From an uncultured Prevotellaceae bacterium (GTDB taxonomy: Bacteria > Bacteroidota > Bacteroidia > Bacteroidales > Bacteroidaceae), in the NCBI GenBank assembly GCA_900318775.1, contig ONLY01000004.1:62001-126000 (forward strand): a stretch of DNA of 64,000 nt. The letters run 5' to 3'. A program made the translations under genes and the position numbers. Below are positions 2,203-58,383 of the stretch, piece after piece. Under the pieces are notes generated by a model that was not told where the DNA came from, did not search any database, and was given only the letters and a program-made list of their open reading frames with translations. Each line of letters begins with the position of its first letter. Position 1 is the stretch's first letter.

Positions 2203-2636
2203 AGGTGTAGTAGTAGTTTCTCCTGAGACAAAAGACGTGGATGTTTACATCTGCCCGCTCAACATTCGAGGCCTACCACAGCCTTTTCCAGAAACAGACA
2301 GAGAAACACCCACGCTGGAGAATATAATACACCCATAAGTGTGCATGAGGGTGCATGACCCTCAACGCACACTACGGAGATGTATATACTACACCCCGTG
2401 GCAGTCACCCCTGCATTGTTTTTGCTGGAATTTCGATTGTGGTAGTTTCGAATGTTCAAAAACAAGCGTCAGCAACGCCTTCAATATGTAAATCTCACCC
2501 GACCGCACAAGCCATGCATGTGCCTTGCAGGTGAAGACGTGGCAAAGTTACACATTCTTTCAGAAACGACAAAAAAGGTAAGATTTATTTTGCATCATCC
2601 TTATGCTACACCCCACCCCCTTCCTGCACCTCTAAA
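2203..2636. other. Intergenic region, no gene supported
   Basis: This stretch carries the hsdM leader and an imperfect inverted repeat at 2339-2372. Short open frames on both strands run through the palindromes, have no family resemblance and are rejected as genes. Apart from the hairpin I see nothing with a recognisable function. Confidence 0.6.
2339..2372. repeat. Imperfect inverted repeat upstream of hsdM
   Basis: GTGTGCATGAGGGT (2339-2352) is mirrored by ACCCTCAACGCACAC (2358-2372) with one extra base and one mismatch, around a 5-base loop. It lies about 140 bases upstream of the hsdM start. It has no T-run and is therefore not a normal terminator. It could be an operator or a cruciform; its role is unknown. 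Confidence 0.6.
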
Positions 2637-2701
2637 CCGACATCGTCGACGTCGGTTTGCCGATGTCGTCGAGGTCGGTCGACCGACGTCGACGATGTCG
2701 G
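2637..2701. repeat. Triple-palindrome element, copy 1
   Basis: Three 19-bp near-palindromes start at 2637, 2660 and 2683, a 23-bp period, with 4-base spacers (TTTG, TCGA). Unit 1 is CCGACATCGTCGACGTCGG and unit 3 is its exact reverse complement, so the whole element is also one long inverted repeat. Flanks CCTGCACCTCTAAA on the left and TTTTGGAGGCACAA on the right resemble those of copies 2 and 3 at 44254 and 30315. It lies downstream of the omega-amidase gene and upstream of hsdM. Confidence 0.85.
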
Positions 2702-2874
2702 TTTTGGAGGCACAATTAAAGCCCCCTACCAATCTTTCCAAAGAAGGAAGGAGAAGTGGGCGGGAATGGGAAACGTCAGTATTGGCCAAAAACGAAGAAT
2801 ATAGGCAAGGCAAGACACACCGCATCAACTCAAAAGCAGTATTGGCCCAGTTCCTTGACCGTCTTTGAGTAGTA

Positions 2875-30181: not shown

Positions 30182-30314
30182 GTATAAAAAAGGAGACAAT
30201 ACAACATAAAACACAAAAAATTGCCAAAAGAAGACTGGATGAATGACAGAAAGAGCAGAAACCGAACCACACAAAAACACTTCCCCGAAATAGGGGTTTC
30301 CTGCACCACTTTGT

Positions 30315-30379
30315 CGGTGTGACTCACACCGACACCCTCGGTCTGAGTCAGACCGGCACCCCCGGTGTGACTCACACCG
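30315..30379. repeat. Triple-palindrome element, copy 3 (divergent core)
   Basis: Three 17-bp palindromes start at 30315, 30339 and 30363, a 24-bp period with 7-base spacers. Units 1 and 3 are CGGTGTGACTCACACCG; unit 2 is CGGTCTGAGTCAGACCG. The core shares no sequence with copies 1 and 2, but the flanks CCTGCACCACTTTG and TTTTTGAGGCACAA closely match copy 1. It lies between the xylanase stop and the HAD lipoprotein promoter. Confidence 0.85.
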
Positions 30380-30410
30380 TTTTTGAGGCACAAAAAGGGG
30401 CATATATAAA

Positions 30411-30444
30411 CAAGGGGGCGCTTCGGTAATGAAGCGCCCCCTTG
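30411..30444 (-). terminator. Probable terminator of the GH10 xylanase gene
   Basis: CAAGGGGGCGCTTC and GAAGCGCCCCCTTG form a perfect 14-bp stem around a 6-base loop, 38 bases past the xylanase stop. On the minus strand it is followed by TTTATATATG, only a weak T-run. Confidence 0.7.
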
Positions 30445-30481: not shown

Positions 30482-33229
30482 TTATTGCTTCAGGAATTTC
30501 TTGCCGTTCTTGATGGCAATGCCCTTATAGGTCTCATCAACAGGTTGGCCCAACAGGTTGTAGATAATGCCAATGTCCGGAGTTGACGGATCGTCTTCAG
30601 CCACTGGGTCTATGTCAGTATTGAGGACACAGTTAAACTTGACCTTATCAATGTTACAGCCAGCGGTGGCTACAGTGAGACGAATGATTTGCTCACCTTC
30701 CTCAAGATTGCGGTTGAGCTCGCCCGTCACAGTAGTGTAGGTGTCCCAATCTGCAGTCTTGGGCACATTGATGCTGGCCAACGTGGTAGTGGCTCCATTT
30801 ACTACACGAGCGATACGGATGACAGCACCCGCAGAGCCTCCTGAAACGGTAGCTTCGTAGGTGTATTTACCCGGCTCTTTCACCTTGACTGAATATTCGA
30901 GCCATTCGCCTGCAGCCGTGTAGCCGATGACATATCCGTTATTGCCTTTAACGATGTCCACACCTTCCAAATCAGTGCGGTAAGAAGAAGCATCGCCCTC
31001 GGCCTTGGAGTCAGAATCATGGAAGGTGAAGCCTTCTCCACCCTTATCGAATCGCTCAGCCTGGATGGTGCCGGGAAGGGATATGGGCAAGGTGCCGTAT
31101 GGCTGACGCTTGGCATTTACCTTGAACGCGTATTTAGACACTTTTGAGTATTTGCCTTCTGGGTCAATGCCTTCGACTGTCACGTTATATGTGCCCTTGG
31201 CCTTAGGTGTATAGCTCACTTCAAACGGCTTCTCGGTCGCTGTGCCTATGAACTGGCCGTCCACATAGAAGTTGACGCTCTGAGCCGTCTGGGATGTGCC
31301 CGAGACAGTAGCCCTAAGAGTGGCCTCATCGCCTGCGGTGCCCGTGGCGGGCAAAGATTTCACAGCCAATCGGAGTGAACTGTTCTGCTCAATATGATTA
31401 AAGACTATCCTATCAAGGTCGCCGCTGGCTCCTGTCACGTTGACGCGCAGCACATGCGTTCCTTCGGCGAGGGAAACGAGGGTGCGCCCATGCACAGGCA
31501 CATATTTGTCCCATGTGCCAGAACCAGTCTGTGGAACGACGATGGTCTCGCTCAATTGCTGAGTCACGCCGTCTGTCACCACCTCAAGAAGGAAACTAGA
31601 ACCTGTAGTACCCGAGGAAACATAAGCATCGTAGGAATAATAGCCAGCCTCTTTCACATCAAGAGTGTATTCCAGCCATTCGCCAGGCTGAGTGTAGCCA
31701 ATTGTGTAGCCCACTCCCGTTACTTTTTTGATGTCAACGCCGCCCACATCGGTACGGTAGGAGGATCCATTGCCTTCGGCGTTGGAACTGGTGTCGTGAT
31801 AAGTAAGGCCTTCTCCACCCTTGTCAAAGTTCTCTGCCTCAACAGTGCCTGGCAGCTCAATCTCTCCCCGGAAAGGACTACGGGGATTGTAGGCGGTGAA
31901 GGAACCTTGACGCTCGTACTGGTTGCCTTCTGTATCGAAGACAATGGCCTTGAGGCTATGCTTGCCTGTGGCAGACGGAGTGTATTCGGCCTCGTAGGCA
32001 CCATCGAGAGTCTTCTCGTTGATGGAGGCAGGCTCGGTGATGGTTGCGTATTTAATGCCTTTCACGTAGAGGTCAATGTGGTCGATGGTCTTGGTGCGCA
32101 AACGGGCGTTGACCGTGATGGTGAAAGGCTCACCCTTCGTGGGTGTGTCTCCAGGTTTGATGTAGACAGATGCCTCCTTTTTCATGCCAGGGAAGGGGCT
32201 TTTAGCTGTCTTCGCTTTTTCAGAAGCCATATAGTCGCGAAGCCATTCCATCGCAGGACGGTCTTCATTGTTCCTGATAAGGCCTGAATTGCCATCGGTA
32301 GTCCAAGTGTGCCCATAGATGTATCCCCACAAGGTAATGCCAGCGCAGTAATCAGCCTCCCACATATAGGGAATCTGCTCTTTGTAGCGCTGCAGCTGAA
32401 GGGCATCATCGCCGGTGCCGATATCGTACTCGGTGCTGTACATAGGCATCTTCAAGGCATTCTGAATCTTCACCATCGCCGATTTGAAATTAGTGACATT
32501 GCAGTCAGTCAAATCGTGCGACTGACAGCCATAGGCATCAATCGGAGCTCCGGCATCGCGGATGGTGCGCACAAGGTCAATGTACTGATCGGTGTTCCAT
32601 TGGAACGTGTTGAAGTCGTTATAGATGAGGATAGCATTGGGCCATCGCTCGTGGGCCATCTCGAAGGCACGGATAATCCAATCGTAACCCGTTTTGCCTC
32701 CTCCACCCAATGCATCCTTGATGTAAGGAGTATCGGCTTGGTGCCCCTCAACGGCCTCATTCACCACATCAATGAGCTCAAGGTCGGGAAAGTGCGCCTT
32801 CACGGCATCAAACCATGACACAATGGCTTTATAGCGTTCATTCACCGAGAGGTTTTTCATCCAGCCAGGGAACTGTGAGCCCCACACAAGGGTGTGGAAC
32901 TTGAAGGGGAAACCCCACTTTTTTGCATAGTCGGCACTCTGGTCAGCCCCTCCAAAGGTATAATTGCCCCTAGTCCACTCGCAAGCATCCCATTTAGTAG
33001 CATTCTCCGGCGTTATCTGGTTCCAGAGTGTATGGAACGCTTCTTTTCCGTAGTCAACCTGATTGTTAGCCGTGGTAATATTACCAAGGAATTTGTCGGG
33101 GTTGGATGATAACTGAGCTTGAGCCATCTGCGACGACAGCATGGCACCACCCAGCAAAAAGTATACAGGCAGTGCGCACAACACTCCCCTTCTCGTCCTC
33201 TTGACGAGTTCTCTCACATTTCCCTTCAT
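30482..33229 (-). CDS. Secreted GH10 endo-beta-1,4-xylanase with two CBM6-like modules
   Basis: A 915-residue enzyme cutting the xylan backbone. After the signal peptide (about 1-38) comes the GH10 barrel, with acid/base Glu158 in DVVNEAVE and nucleophile Glu267 in YSTEYDIG. Ig-like modules alternate with two CBM6-type modules (from VEAENFDKGGEG and IQAERFDKGGEG, both with YRTD and PGEWLEY-type motifs). The C-terminus YNLLGQPV then KGIAIKNGKKFLKQ is a tail shared with the proteins at 34802 and 47476. An unusually long linker between signal and barrel is absent. Promoter at 33282. Confidence 0.93.
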   Translation of the reverse strand: MKGNVRELVKRTRRGVLCALPVYFLLGGAMLSSQMAQAQLSSNPDKFLGNITTANNQVDYGKEAFHTLWNQITPENATKWDACEWTRGNYTFGGADQSADYAKKWGFPFKFHTLVWGSQFPGWMKNLSVNERYKAIVSWFDAVKAHFPDLELIDVVNEAVEGHQADTPYIKDALGGGGKTGYDWIIRAFEMAHERWPNAILIYNDFNTFQWNTDQYIDLVRTIRDAGAPIDAYGCQSHDLTDCNVTNFKSAMVKIQNALKMPMYSTEYDIGTGDDALQLQRYKEQIPYMWEADYCAGITLWGYIYGHTWTTDGNSGLIRNNEDRPAMEWLRDYMASEKAKTAKSPFPGMKKEASVYIKPGDTPTKGEPFTITVNARLRTKTIDHIDLYVKGIKYATITEPASINEKTLDGAYEAEYTPSATGKHSLKAIVFDTEGNQYERQGSFTAYNPRSPFRGEIELPGTVEAENFDKGGEGLTYHDTSSNAEGNGSSYRTDVGGVDIKKVTGVGYTIGYTQPGEWLEYTLDVKEAGYYSYDAYVSSGTTGSSFLLEVVTDGVTQQLSETIVVPQTGSGTWDKYVPVHGRTLVSLAEGTHVLRVNVTGASGDLDRIVFNHIEQNSSLRLAVKSLPATGTAGDEATLRATVSGTSQTAQSVNFYVDGQFIGTATEKPFEVSYTPKAKGTYNVTVEGIDPEGKYSKVSKYAFKVNAKRQPYGTLPISLPGTIQAERFDKGGEGFTFHDSDSKAEGDASSYRTDLEGVDIVKGNNGYVIGYTAAGEWLEYSVKVKEPGKYTYEATVSGGSAGAVIRIARVVNGATTTLASINVPKTADWDTYTTVTGELNRNLEEGEQIIRLTVATAGCNIDKVKFNCVLNTDIDPVAEDDPSTPDIGIIYNLLGQPVDETYKGIAIKNGKKFLKQ

Positions 33230-44253: not shown

Positions 44254-44318
44254 TCGACATCGTCGACATCGATTGACCGACATCGTCGACATCGGTCAAC
44301 CGACGTCGACGATGTCGG
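44254..44318. repeat. Triple-palindrome element, copy 2
   Basis: Three 19-bp near-palindromes start at 44254, 44277 and 44300 (23-bp period; spacers TTGA and TCAA). Unit 3 is CCGACGTCGACGATGTCGG, identical to unit 3 of copy 1 at 2683. Flanks CAACCTCTAAA and TTTTGTAGCACAA are related to the other copies. It begins 18 bases past the stop of the large regulator gene on the minus strand. Confidence 0.85.
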
Positions 44319-56119: not shown

Positions 56120-57876
56120 ATAAATTCACCATACAGCAACTCCAGCAGATGCGAGAATCCGAAGACCGCGTTGAGTTCAAGGCGGGCGAAGGAGGCAACG
56201 TTTCCTACGATGGTCGAGGCAAGACCAACCCAAAGGATCGTCGCCGCTGCATCCTTGGCTATGTCATCGCCCTTTGCAACGAAGGGGGCGGTCGCCTTGT
56301 CATAGGTATGCACGACAACTATCCGCATCGTGTCACTGGCACTCGCCAGGCACAGGATGCTATCGGACAGCTGGAGTCGGACATTTATCGAGACACAACT
56401 ATTCGCCCAGAGATATACGAACTCTACGACGAAGAGAATCGTCGTGTGCTGGTGATTGAGGTTCCATCACGCCCTATCGGCAAAGTCTTCAAATTCGAGG
56501 ACGTGCCTTTGATGCGTGTTGGCGAAGAACTCAAGCCAATGTCCGATGCCATGTATCTCAAGATACTGCAGGAGTCAGAACCGGACTTCTCCGAGAAGAT
56601 CTGCGAGGGACTAACTCTTGAAGACCTTGATGAAGAGGCGATTCGTGTGATGAAGCAAGGCTATGCCCAACGATGGAACAAGCCAGAGTTCGTGAGTACA
56701 CCAACCTTGCAAGTCCTCCACGATTTTGCTCTCATGAATAAGGATGGTCAGTTGACCAATGCTACCCTTATTCTGCTTGGCAAGTCAGAAGCCATTCGCA
56801 AGCATCTGTATTGCAATCGCGTGACTGTAGAGTACCGACTTTATCACTCCATGATTGAATACACCGCACGTCAGGAATTCCAAGAACCACTCGTGCTGAT
56901 GGTCGATTCGGTGTGGAACTACATCAACCAACCTGCCAGCAACCCATTACAACACTACAATGACGGCTTTCGCATTGGTGATATTCCTGCGTTCAATCGA
57001 GAAGTAGTACGAGAGGCAATCCTCAATGCTTGCTGCCATCGTGTGATGTACATTCAGAGCGATGTGGTAATCAAGCAATATCCAGACCAACTCATCATCA
57101 CCAATGCTGGAGGCTTCCCTGTTGGTGTTGATGTGGACAATATCCTTACGGTCAACAGTATGCCTCGTTGCAAACTCATCACCGAGGTATTGCAGAAGGC
57201 AGGCTTCATTGAGAAGAGTGGACAGGGCGTTGACAAGATGTTCTACCATTGCCTGATGGATGGCAAACGTCTGCCTGACTATTCTTTGACAGACGATTGG
57301 CAGGTATGCCTACGACTCTCTGGCGAAATCAAGTACCCTGCCTTCATGCTCTATGCTCGTGAGCTGCAGAACGACCGACCAGCAAACAACAAGCTCAACG
57401 TCTTCGACCTTCTTGCCCTCTTCCGTGCTTCGCAAGGCGAAAGCCAACGCCATACAGACGAAGTAACACTACGCAAACTTATCGACGAAGGATTACTCAT
57501 CTCTACGCAAGATGGCTATAAGTTGTCTGACAGGTATTATGAAATCGCCAAGAATGTCGGAACTGTTGAGGACAAGCGAAAGGATGTCCCGGTAAATGTC
57601 CCGGTAAATGATACGGTAAATGATACGGTAAAATTACCTCAACTTACTGAAAGACAGAAAAAGATTTATCATATCATAAAAGATGGTACGATAAATGATA
57701 CTGCAAATGTCCCGATAAATGTCCCGATAAATGTCCCGATAAATACTTCTGGTCTTGCAACGATGTTTAATGTTTCCGAGAAGACTATAAAACGAGATCT
57801 CTATGTCCTCCGAGATCTGAATCTCATCAAGTATGTAGGTAGTAACAAAACCGGGCATTGGGAAGTGATTAATTAA
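56116..57876 (+). CDS. AlbA_2/HATPase protein with a 12-bp-repeat hinge and winged helix
   Basis: A 586-residue protein. The N-terminal Schlafen AlbA_2 nucleic-acid-binding domain (about 1-150) has EDRVEFKAGEG and CNEGGGRLVIGMHDN. A GHKL ATPase-like C-terminal part (about 285-400) has REAILNACCHR and IITNAGGFPVGVD, and a final winged helix holds TMFNVSEKTIKRDLYVLRDL. The region 490-545 is built from four-residue repeats (N-V-P-V or N-D-T-V type) encoded by 12-bp tandem repeats at 57586-57633 and 57685-57744. It is coupled to the XRE gene. Relatives are annotated as transcriptional regulators or ATP-binding proteins; a defence role is possible but unproven. Confidence 0.85.
   Translation: MNKFTIQQLQQMRESEDRVEFKAGEGGNVSYDGRGKTNPKDRRRCILGYVIALCNEGGGRLVIGMHDNYPHRVTGTRQAQDAIGQLESDIYRDTTIRPEIYELYDEENRRVLVIEVPSRPIGKVFKFEDVPLMRVGEELKPMSDAMYLKILQESEPDFSEKICEGLTLEDLDEEAIRVMKQGYAQRWNKPEFVSTPTLQVLHDFALMNKDGQLTNATLILLGKSEAIRKHLYCNRVTVEYRLYHSMIEYTARQEFQEPLVLMVDSVWNYINQPASNPLQHYNDGFRIGDIPAFNREVVREAILNACCHRVMYIQSDVVIKQYPDQLIITNAGGFPVGVDVDNILTVNSMPRCKLITEVLQKAGFIEKSGQGVDKMFYHCLMDGKRLPDYSLTDDWQVCLRLSGEIKYPAFMLYARELQNDRPANNKLNVFDLLALFRASQGESQRHTDEVTLRKLIDEGLLISTQDGYKLSDRYYEIAKNVGTVEDKRKDVPVNVPVNDTVNDTVKLPQLTERQKKIYHIIKDGTINDTANVPINVPINVPINTSGLATMFNVSEKTIKRDLYVLRDLNLIKYVGSNKTGHWEVIN
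57586..57744 (+). repeat. Two arrays of in-frame 12-bp repeats inside the AlbA_2 gene
   Basis: Array 1 (57586-57633) has four units such as GTCCCGGTAAAT and GATACGGTAAAT. Array 2 (57685-57744) has five, the last three identical GTCCCGATAAAT. Unit length is a multiple of three, so slippage changes the protein by four residues without a frameshift. Confidence 0.92.
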
Positions 57877-57894: not shown

Positions 57895-58383
57895 ATGGAC
57901 AACCGTTCGCATTTTCGTTCGCTGGACGAACTCATTAGGGGGCTTGATAGGGAGAGGGCTCTGGAGCGAACCACGTCAACAGGTGACATGGATAAGTTCC
58001 AGGAGGCCATCTGTGCCTTTGCCAATGACCTTCCAAACTCGCGAAAGAATGGCTACCTGATACTGAGGGCTTACGACAATGGCGGTAATGTTGGCGGTAA
58101 AAATGGCGGTGATATCGTAGAAAATGTCGTAGGAAAAGATCTTAATGACGTAGCAAAGCCCTCAGATGTCGTAGAAAATGTCGTAGAAAACAAAGAAAAT
58201 GTCGTAGAAAACATTCTTGCAAGTATATCTAAGAATTCAACCATATCCACAAAAAAACTGGCAGCGATGTGTTCTCTTTCTGAAAGACAGGTACAGCGTA
58301 TCATGACCAAATTGAAAGAACAAGGTGTTATCCGTCGTATTGGCCCAGACAAAGGTGGGCACTGGGAAATAATCGCACCATAG
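57895..58383 (+). CDS. Internally deleted AlbA_2-type protein with winged helix
   Basis: A 162-residue protein. Residues 1-65 match the start of an AlbA_2 domain (DKFQEAICAFANDLPNSRKN, GYLILRAYDNGG). Then comes a repeat-rich linker (NVGGKNGGD, DVVENVVENKENVVEN), and residues 110-162 form a winged helix (CSLSERQVQRIMTKLKEQGV). The centre of a full AlbA_2 domain and any HATPase region are missing, some 350 residues compared with its upstream neighbour. It begins 19 bases after that gene. It may be a deletion relic or a small regulator that competes with the full-length protein. Confidence 0.7.
   Translation: MDNRSHFRSLDELIRGLDRERALERTTSTGDMDKFQEAICAFANDLPNSRKNGYLILRAYDNGGNVGGKNGGDIVENVVGKDLNDVAKPSDVVENVVENKENVVENILASISKNSTISTKKLAAMCSLSERQVQRIMTKLKEQGVIRRIGPDKGGHWEIIAP

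Follow-up and report, generated by a model that had tools for sequence, protein, structure and literature searches.

Three-unit palindromic arrays with exchangeable cores in one genus: putative duplex sites for a dimeric protein

The array of three palindromes at position 30,315 of the window, the whole 64,000-nucleotide stretch of DNA analysed here (G000:C26:62001-126000), is a member of a family of arrays that occur in tens of copies per genome, share one architecture and are restricted to one genus among the genomes searched. Within these arrays, the palindromic units are frozen and bear the signature of sites read as duplex DNA, the core is mostly a genome-level trait, and different cores are found at orthologous sites of related genomes. 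These arrays might be tripartite duplex sites for a dimeric protein, with the core set by a putative genome-specific factor; this reading is given about even odds here. No description of such arrays was found in the open-licence literature.

The array consists of three 15-bp palindromic units with a period of exactly 24 bp (Table 1), confirming the three-unit 24-bp design proposed in an earlier note on this DNA, and P-type arrays of this kind are present at 36 loci of the source genome (G000; 2.62 Mb, 41 contigs). Contrary to what that note had implied, the three units are not all alike, since the outer two are GGTGTGACTCACACC and the middle one is GGTCTGAGTCAGACC. All three arrays of the window are intergenic and lie within related flanks. 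The pair CCTGCACC...GAGGCACAA at array spacing has two matches in the window (2623-2715 and 30300-30393) and none in 100 dinucleotide shuffles, and a strict three-palindrome scan of the window detects one array and none in each of 20 shuffles. The flank similarity claimed earlier is thus far above chance (0/100 shuffles; at most one match per genome for the frame control described below). G010 carries the same array at the equivalent place with its units unchanged. The neighbouring HAD-like gene is also found in 14 further genomes, and the flanks fetched from these, some of them truncated at contig ends, contain none of eight core types.

Table 1. Arrays, palindromic units and frame arms in the window
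Feature	Position	Strand	Remarks
P-type core array	30315..30379		Three C-GGTSTGASTCASACC-G units, spacers GACACCCTC and GGCACCCCC; also in G010 at the equivalent place
Unit 1 of 30315 array	30316..30330		GGTGTGACTCACACC, perfect 7-1-7 palindrome, X/X
Unit 2 of 30315 array	30340..30354		GGTCTGAGTCAGACC, perfect palindrome, Y/Y
Unit 3 of 30315 array	30364..30378		GGTGTGACTCACACC, X/X
Left frame arm of 30315 array	30298..30314	+	TTCCTGCACCACTTTGT, variant of CTTCCTGCACCTCAAAA
Right frame arm of 30315 array	30380..30395	+	TTTTTGAGGCACAAAA, decayed partner of TTTTGAGGTGCAGGAAG
CG-type array (Q, centres GTC/GTC/GAC)	2637..2701		Three 19-bp units, 23-bp period
Left frame arm of 2637 array	2621..2636	+	TTCCTGCACCTCTAAA
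Right frame arm of 2637 array	2702..2715	+	TTTTGGAGGCACAA
CG-type array (Q, centres GTC/GTC/GAC)	44254..44318		23-bp period, frame decayed

Other features of the window include a strong GC hairpin (CAAGGGGGCGCTTC...GAAGCGCCCCCTTG) at 30411-30444, beside the 30315 array, which probably terminates the GH10 gene at 30482-33229. Short tandem repeats at 57602-57736 (CGGTAAATGATA) and 58111-58232 (GATGTCGTAGAAAA) look unrelated to the arrays. A gene for HsdM, a type I-like N6 adenine methyltransferase, at 754-2202 adjoins the 2637 array.

In the source genome, the P unit GGTSTGASTCASACC has 113 matches per strand with at most one mismatch, and the reversed-pattern control has none. The three-unit P pattern, with up to three mismatches allowed, has 37 matches, of which 32 contain no mismatch, five contain one and none contains two or three; these correspond to 36 loci with three or more units each, since one four-unit locus yields two matches. 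The Q unit is a CGAYVTC-GWC-GABRTCG palindrome with a 23-bp period (40 forward and 41 reverse matches; 2 and 0 for the control), and 17 Q arrays, each with two or three recognisable units, are present in the same genome. With a looser detector, 47 arrays are found in 56 loci of this genome and none in one shuffle of each. Three of the 56 loci hold just one or two units. As no P match has two or three mismatches, units appear to be lost whole, with decay hardly seen; L137, for example, has two units left and L138 one.

P and Q arrays are both located within the inverted-repeat frame CCTCNAAA…TTTNGAGG, and alignment of the flanks by eye gives the inverted repeat CTTCCTGCACCTCAAAA…TTTTGAGGTGCAGGAAG, with variants. 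The P spacers are 9 nt, and GAGGGTGCC alone accounts for 12 of them when both orientations are counted. The frame pattern CCTCNAAA-N58-88-TTTNGAGG has matches in 21 of 45 genomes of the genus, with up to 42 per genome, a few of which are plainly not arrays, against at most one control match per genome. Two P units in register (up to three mismatches) are found in 18 of the 44 remaining genomes of the genus, whereas 105 genomes from elsewhere have none. Across 201 genomes sampled from the family, the frame pattern has 0-4 matches in other genera, as compared with 0-6 for the control, in a search that differently framed arrays escape. Among the genomes searched, the array family is therefore restricted to one genus. 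The array-bearing records among the matches listed are MAGs of uncultured Bacteroidales, Prevotellaceae or Bacteroidaceae, and the titles of several of the listed records name goat reticulum or deer rumen. An exact-flank search in 149 relatives was abandoned; its matches outside the source genome are non-palindromic and chance-like, the frames being different from one species to the next.

At least eight core types are present within this one frame across the genus, namely P, GGTSAGASTCTSACC, and six YCG…CGR types with GWC, SSS, GGAGTC, GTG-SSS-CAC, CACCC and ACCAC interiors. This bears out the suggestion that a single architecture holds exchangeable cores. GWC and SSS centres are never mixed within an array (0/66 CG-type arrays from 12 genomes, each with at least two units fitting CGAYVTC-NNN-GABRTCG; these arrays are a sample in which many loci were chosen for an intact frame or for likeness to an array of the source genome). 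The units of an array thus change together, as the earlier note proposed, and independent variation of cores within a copy is not what is found. Two CG-type arrays of the source genome have one unit of neither centre type (CTC in L121, AAC in L136).

The CG-type centre is mostly a genome-level trait. GWC units account for 46 of 48 units in the source genome and for all units in G016 (9/9), G041 (14/14) and G002 (12/12), and CCC/GGG units for all of those in G012 (26/26) and G013 (9/9). The CG-type arrays sampled from G025 and G003 are likewise GWC, and those from G019 are SSS. Some genomes are mixed by unit: G038 has 17/21 CCC/GGG units and one CCG, G036 has 15/18 GWC units and G010 has 14/16. 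A minority array of the other centre type is present in each of these three genomes (L430 in G038, L316 in G036, L447 in G010). In 57 three-unit CG-type arrays, the outer centres are directed inward (GTC...GAC, CCC...GGG) in 37, outward in one and are non-complementary in 19. An array of a third kind, the CGATGTG-GGG-CACTTCG type, is seen in the source genome at about 780-835 of L084 (G000:C11:17250-21250), about 1.2 kb from a P array, and also at L159 in G010.

Constraint on the P arrays was assessed using 23 of 24 orthologous array pairs between the source genome and close relatives, including L086/L246 and L106/L251; the pair L097/L209, which is without a full triplet, was dropped. The 12 fixed positions of each unit do not differ at all (0/828), nor do the unit edges (0/92), and positions 4 and 12 differ in 2/138 cases. 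The centre position differs in 10/69 cases, the middle of the spacer in 27/322, the inner frame in 40/367 (10.9%) and the outer arms in 69/458 (15.1%), as compared with 227/1834 in the surroundings 21-60 bp away and 477/4563 (10.5%) at 61-160 bp. Compared with the surroundings, units are changed far less (p about 1e-36), the spacer and the inner frame do not differ (p 0.26 and 0.79, respectively) and the arms are somewhat more changed (p 0.0035). In these arrays, then, the palindromes stay fixed and the frame drifts, which reverses the idea that the flanks are the fixed part. C/G exchanges, the least frequent kind of change in the flanks (51/816), make up nine of the ten changes at the centre, and the centre almost never becomes A or T. 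At one site (L110 vs L193), a YgX unit corresponds to XcX, an exact arm-templated change with centre inversion. Template switching during replication at the palindromes probably supplies such centre flips, with selection removing A and T.

P units are built from two half sites, X (GGTGTGA) and Y (GGTCTGA). Imperfect X/Y palindromes make up 58 of the 112 P units; 44 are X/X, six are Y/Y and four have one mutated half. The centre of X/X units is free, with C and G in similar numbers (24 to 20). That of X/Y units is locked, being C when read from X to Y (52 to 5, and one T), and the locked units occur equally often in their two strand forms (27 and 25). By symmetry, exchanging C for G at the centre gives the same duplex in an X/X unit but another one in an X/Y unit. 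Such a pattern is predicted by a dimer reading the duplex and not by an RNA loop. With most units imperfect in this way (58/112), arm pairing at p 0.30 and no complement covariation between units 1 and 3, the earlier proposal that palindromic structure is selected rather than sequence finds no support; the alternative offered beside it, a different, putative DNA-binding protein for each core, fits best among its readings.

The half-site composition of the arrays is also constant. Exactly two Y halves are present in 27 of 31 clean three-unit P loci, a count reached in none of 20000 shuffles (maximum 23), and this goes beyond what simple site-by-site selection predicts. It may reflect a common founder followed by rearrangement, or selection on total affinity. 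Spacer inversion finds no support as the cause of the 4:2 X/Y composition, as the spacers seem by eye to have one polarity along the array. In three of six tests, the likeness between neighbouring units exceeds that after permutation (P 2-3, 14/1000 permutations reaching the observed likeness; Q 2-3, 8/1000; Q2 1-2, 1/1000), with 504, 176 and 476 of 1000 for the remaining pairs, which suggests some duplication of units within arrays. The copying mechanism that the earlier note read from concerted change of the units retains this much support; it is not required, since at some sites the centres have changed with spacers or arms kept.

Cores also differ at some orthologous sites. The flanks are homologous on both sides in 57 array pairs, of which 45 have the same core and 12 a different one. 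Four of the 12 (L134/L348, L310/L348, L348/L364 and L133/L361) are doubtful because, on one side or both, the homologous ends lie 460-985 bp away from the array; for six of the remaining eight, the alignments were inspected. Three sites are clear. At the mraZ site, the neighbours are mraZ and an outer-membrane barrel gene that precedes priA. There, G012 has three GGG centres and its close relative G036 has GTC, GTC and GAC, in gaps of equal length (302 bp); centres differ at 6/9 positions, arms at 7/48, spacers at 4/8 and flanks at 79/637. P arrays are present at the same site in G013 and G038 and, by eye, a GAGAGTCTC-type array in G041, and none of eight core types was found there in the source genome, G010 and others. 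By eye, TGTAACA/TGTTACA motif repeats are seen at this site in the source genome (L464) and G010 (L459), GTGAGTCTTGCTCAT repeats in G002 and GCCGACGGCAA repeats in G011. A framed three-unit array with GGAGTGAGTCACACC-like units is likewise seen upstream of mraZ in G032 (L465, gap 865-1319).

At the site of a thioredoxin-like gene, four species have a stretch in common with nearly identical left flanks. The centres are CCC in all three units in G012 and G038 and GTC/GTC/GAC in G036. The source genome has lost one unit and has CTC/GAC. Between G012 and G036, centres differ at 6/9 positions, arms at 2/48, spacers at 3/8 and flanks at 24/150. In all four genomes the type at this site is that of the genome majority, bar the CTC unit of the source genome and with the site itself included in the majority counts. 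The arms of the source genome match G036, and its flanks are nearer to G012 (7/148) than to G036 (17/150); with arms and flanks in disagreement the site appears to be a mosaic, and the source genome may have inherited its type. This stretch (L121, L411, L412) is 97% identical to the source genome in G012 and 93% in G038, above the other sites of those genomes, which suggests horizontal transfer. Between L119 and L333, both spacers are kept and the centres have changed (4/6 scored positions, with the third unit of the source genome unscored; flanks 51/213). A Q array of the source genome (L126) and a P array in RUG14560 share the same intergenic region, where either one array or two insertions are possible. 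A further Q array (L134:2103-2588) is 65 bp upstream of a gene for a Cro/CI-type HTH protein, with a right flank 96-97% identical in G036 and G016.

The genes near arrays give little hint of a specific regulon. Among 55 loci (56 less one with a neighbour on one side only), 19 are convergent, 26 tandem and 10 divergent. The convergent share exceeds a 17.5% null (p 0.002), which was taken from 62 gaps with the array-bearing ones included; the 15 array-free gaps of the window are about 32% convergent, and the convergent preference is therefore not secure. Arrays are at a median distance of 92.5 bp from stop codons and of 150 bp from starts. No common function was found for 20 genes starting within 190 bp of arrays; 15 of them have a Pfam family, and these include CTP synthase, YchF, PurL, CbiC, an integrase, a WYL protein and a Cro/CI-type HTH protein. 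This argues against an ordinary regulon and for a site of general role. The first choice for this role would be dispersed roadblock or insulator sites between transcription units, which is a guess with a small chance of being right, as the convergent preference is gone with the array-free null.

If the arrays are duplex sites, a sequence-specific dimer would bind each odd-length palindrome, and the three neighbouring units, 23-24 bp apart from centre to centre, would probably be bound cooperatively. Trans-acting factors of the genome, one for each core type, would determine which core is recognised, with P and Q coexisting in the source genome. Purifying selection would keep the units exact, and when the specificity of the factor shifts in a lineage, the centres of all three units would change in place. 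The frame would be the decayed inverted ends by which an element of about 100 bp once spread. The protein, its cooperativity and selection as the cause of exactness are the parts that we infer. Several observations are uncomfortable for this reading: regulatory sites are seldom this exact over about 110 scattered units, the surplus of C/G flips at the centre also points to a mutation process driven by the palindromes, and both the minority arrays in three genomes and the constant composition of two Y halves tell against it.

Other explanations account for parts of these data. The arrays could be selfish or domesticated mobile elements of the MITE or REP kind, with the frame as terminal inverted repeats, the palindromes as sites of a transposase acting in trans and the cores as transposase specificities. 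Like a MITE, they have terminal inverted repeats, the frame CCTCNAAA...TTTNGAGG, and the tens of copies per genome, the patchy presence within one genus and the loss of whole units (L137, L138; L365 vs L373) are in keeping with this explanation; G019, with 23 frame matches, has a strong Y1_Tnp hit. The 30315 array, present only in the source genome and G010 and absent from the flanks fetched for 14 others, fits a lineage-specific insertion. However, no recent movement is seen: all 22 P loci of RUG13218 among the matches listed correspond to loci of the source genome (20 by both flanks, L233 and L209 by separate comparison). No close genome pair with an array in one and missing in the other, in which a target-site duplication would show, was found. 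In addition, the frame decays and the units stay exact, whereas mobility would call for the reverse. The source genome, G010, G012, G013, G034, G038 and G032 have no Y1_Tnp (RAYT family) hit, and G036 has one only below the cut-off, in genomes that are 83-98% complete; among the seven genomes with more than 50 P matches, RAYT is absent in six and sub-cut-off in the seventh. A mobile-element origin of the present pattern is thus unlikely. An origin from phages was rejected on zero matches to viral contigs for the two patterns tried, one P and one Q. Concerted evolution without functional selection, by gene conversion among copies and template switching at palindromes, is less likely still. It would account for the C/G exchanges at 9/69 centres, for the arm-templated change between L110 and L193 and for neighbouring units that are in some cases more alike than permuted ones, and template switching between inverted repeats is described as homogenising arms and inverting the spacer (PMC8604942). 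But spacers drift (27/322) next to units that do not (0/828), which would require conversion tracts to stop precisely at the borders of units, and template switching inside single units leaves unexplained both why units agree with each other and why the core is chosen genome-wide.

A role as structured RNA, in which arrays act as hairpins of transcripts such as 3'-end stabilisers or terminators, might seem natural given the strong predicted folds (z -5.6 to -10.5 in the four stretches folded) and the median of 92.5 bp from gene 3' ends. Any palindrome folds in this way relative to shuffles, however, and the mismatched X/Y unit is the commonest kind (58/112). Arm pairing in arrays of the source genome is not above permutation (p 0.30), units 1 and 3 show no covariation (permutation counts of 340, 625 and 657 in 1000 for P, Q and Q2, respectively), CCC and GGG loops coexist in one array on one strand, the locked X/Y strand forms are equally common (27 and 25), and no Rfam family reaches threshold in the window. 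This role is accordingly improbable. A long hairpin of units 1 and 3 gives striking folds but was set aside, as permutation gives no complement covariation. Arm pairing in relatives is above permutation (p 0.0005), in a pool that mixes genomes with different arms, and was not taken as evidence of selection on pairing. The arrays might lastly be self marks for a defence or DNA-modifying system whose enzyme reads the array type and harms or corrects the wrong type. The all-or-none exactness, the mostly genome-level type and the matching of the thioredoxin-site type to the genome would suit such marks, but no recurrent defence gene was found in 27 proteins scanned without a defence library, HsdM beside the 2637 array is a single case, and minority arrays are tolerated in three genomes; the idea is very improbable.

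Among known systems, REP and BIME sequences (GTAG and CGTC superfamilies) resemble the arrays as short intergenic palindromes in tens of copies, which are grouped, have short modular spacers and are specific to a genus or species. CGTC REPs are reported in Bacteroidetes among other phyla and seem, in that account, to be without a dedicated transposase (PMC3733652). Unlike these, the arrays have three units at a fixed 23-24 bp period, an inverted frame and apparently no tag at a fixed place, most array-rich genomes have no RAYT, and the core differs in all units at conserved sites. By eye, GTAG and CGTC tags are absent at the fixed positions and edges of P units; GTAG is seen in some spacers and CGTC in some Q units. 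The likeness to the lambda OL and OR regions, with three odd-length palindromes at 20-24 bp spacing, is one of geometry only. The lambda operators come as three odd palindromes, each about 17 bp long and spaced by slightly more than two helical turns, with stronger and weaker half sites, and phages related to lambda keep the operator layout with other sequences. Two sets of three operators are mentioned in one account (PMC5880393). Unlike lambda operators, the arrays are dispersed in chromosomes beside unrelated genes and no repressor switch is seen adjoining them; a cI/cro-like switch at divergent promoters was not found, with 10/55 loci divergent, scanned neighbours mostly metabolic or unrelated, and one Cro/CI-type HTH gene (beside L134) among them. 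Mycobacteriophage stoperators are described as many dispersed, asymmetric sites of a phage genome, bound by one repressor that ends transcription elongation (PMC9283540); the arrays resemble them in dispersal, but are triple, palindromic and chromosomal. CRISPR loci also contain regularly spaced, partly palindromic repeats. Unlike CRISPR, the arrays have spacers of 4-9 nt common to several arrays, mostly three units and tens of loci, and no unique spacers of repeat length were found.

Interspersed palindromes are widespread, and their function has mostly been argued from copy number. In these arrays, per-base constraint, a duplex-versus-RNA signature and natural core swaps at single sites can all be measured from sequence alone, and they are a case of site positions outliving site sequence. 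Should the core be enforced by a trans-acting factor, at least eight specificities would be available for comparison within the genus. More tentatively, and with the chances against it, the arrays may constitute a chromosome-wide code in one genus, in which the factor enforces a genome-wide core and repeatedly shifts its specificity, with arrays rewritten in all three units and horizontally acquired arrays perhaps rewritten to the host core too. If true, such a code would be a bacterial counterpart of the fast co-evolution between a DNA-binding factor and dispersed satellite-like sites.
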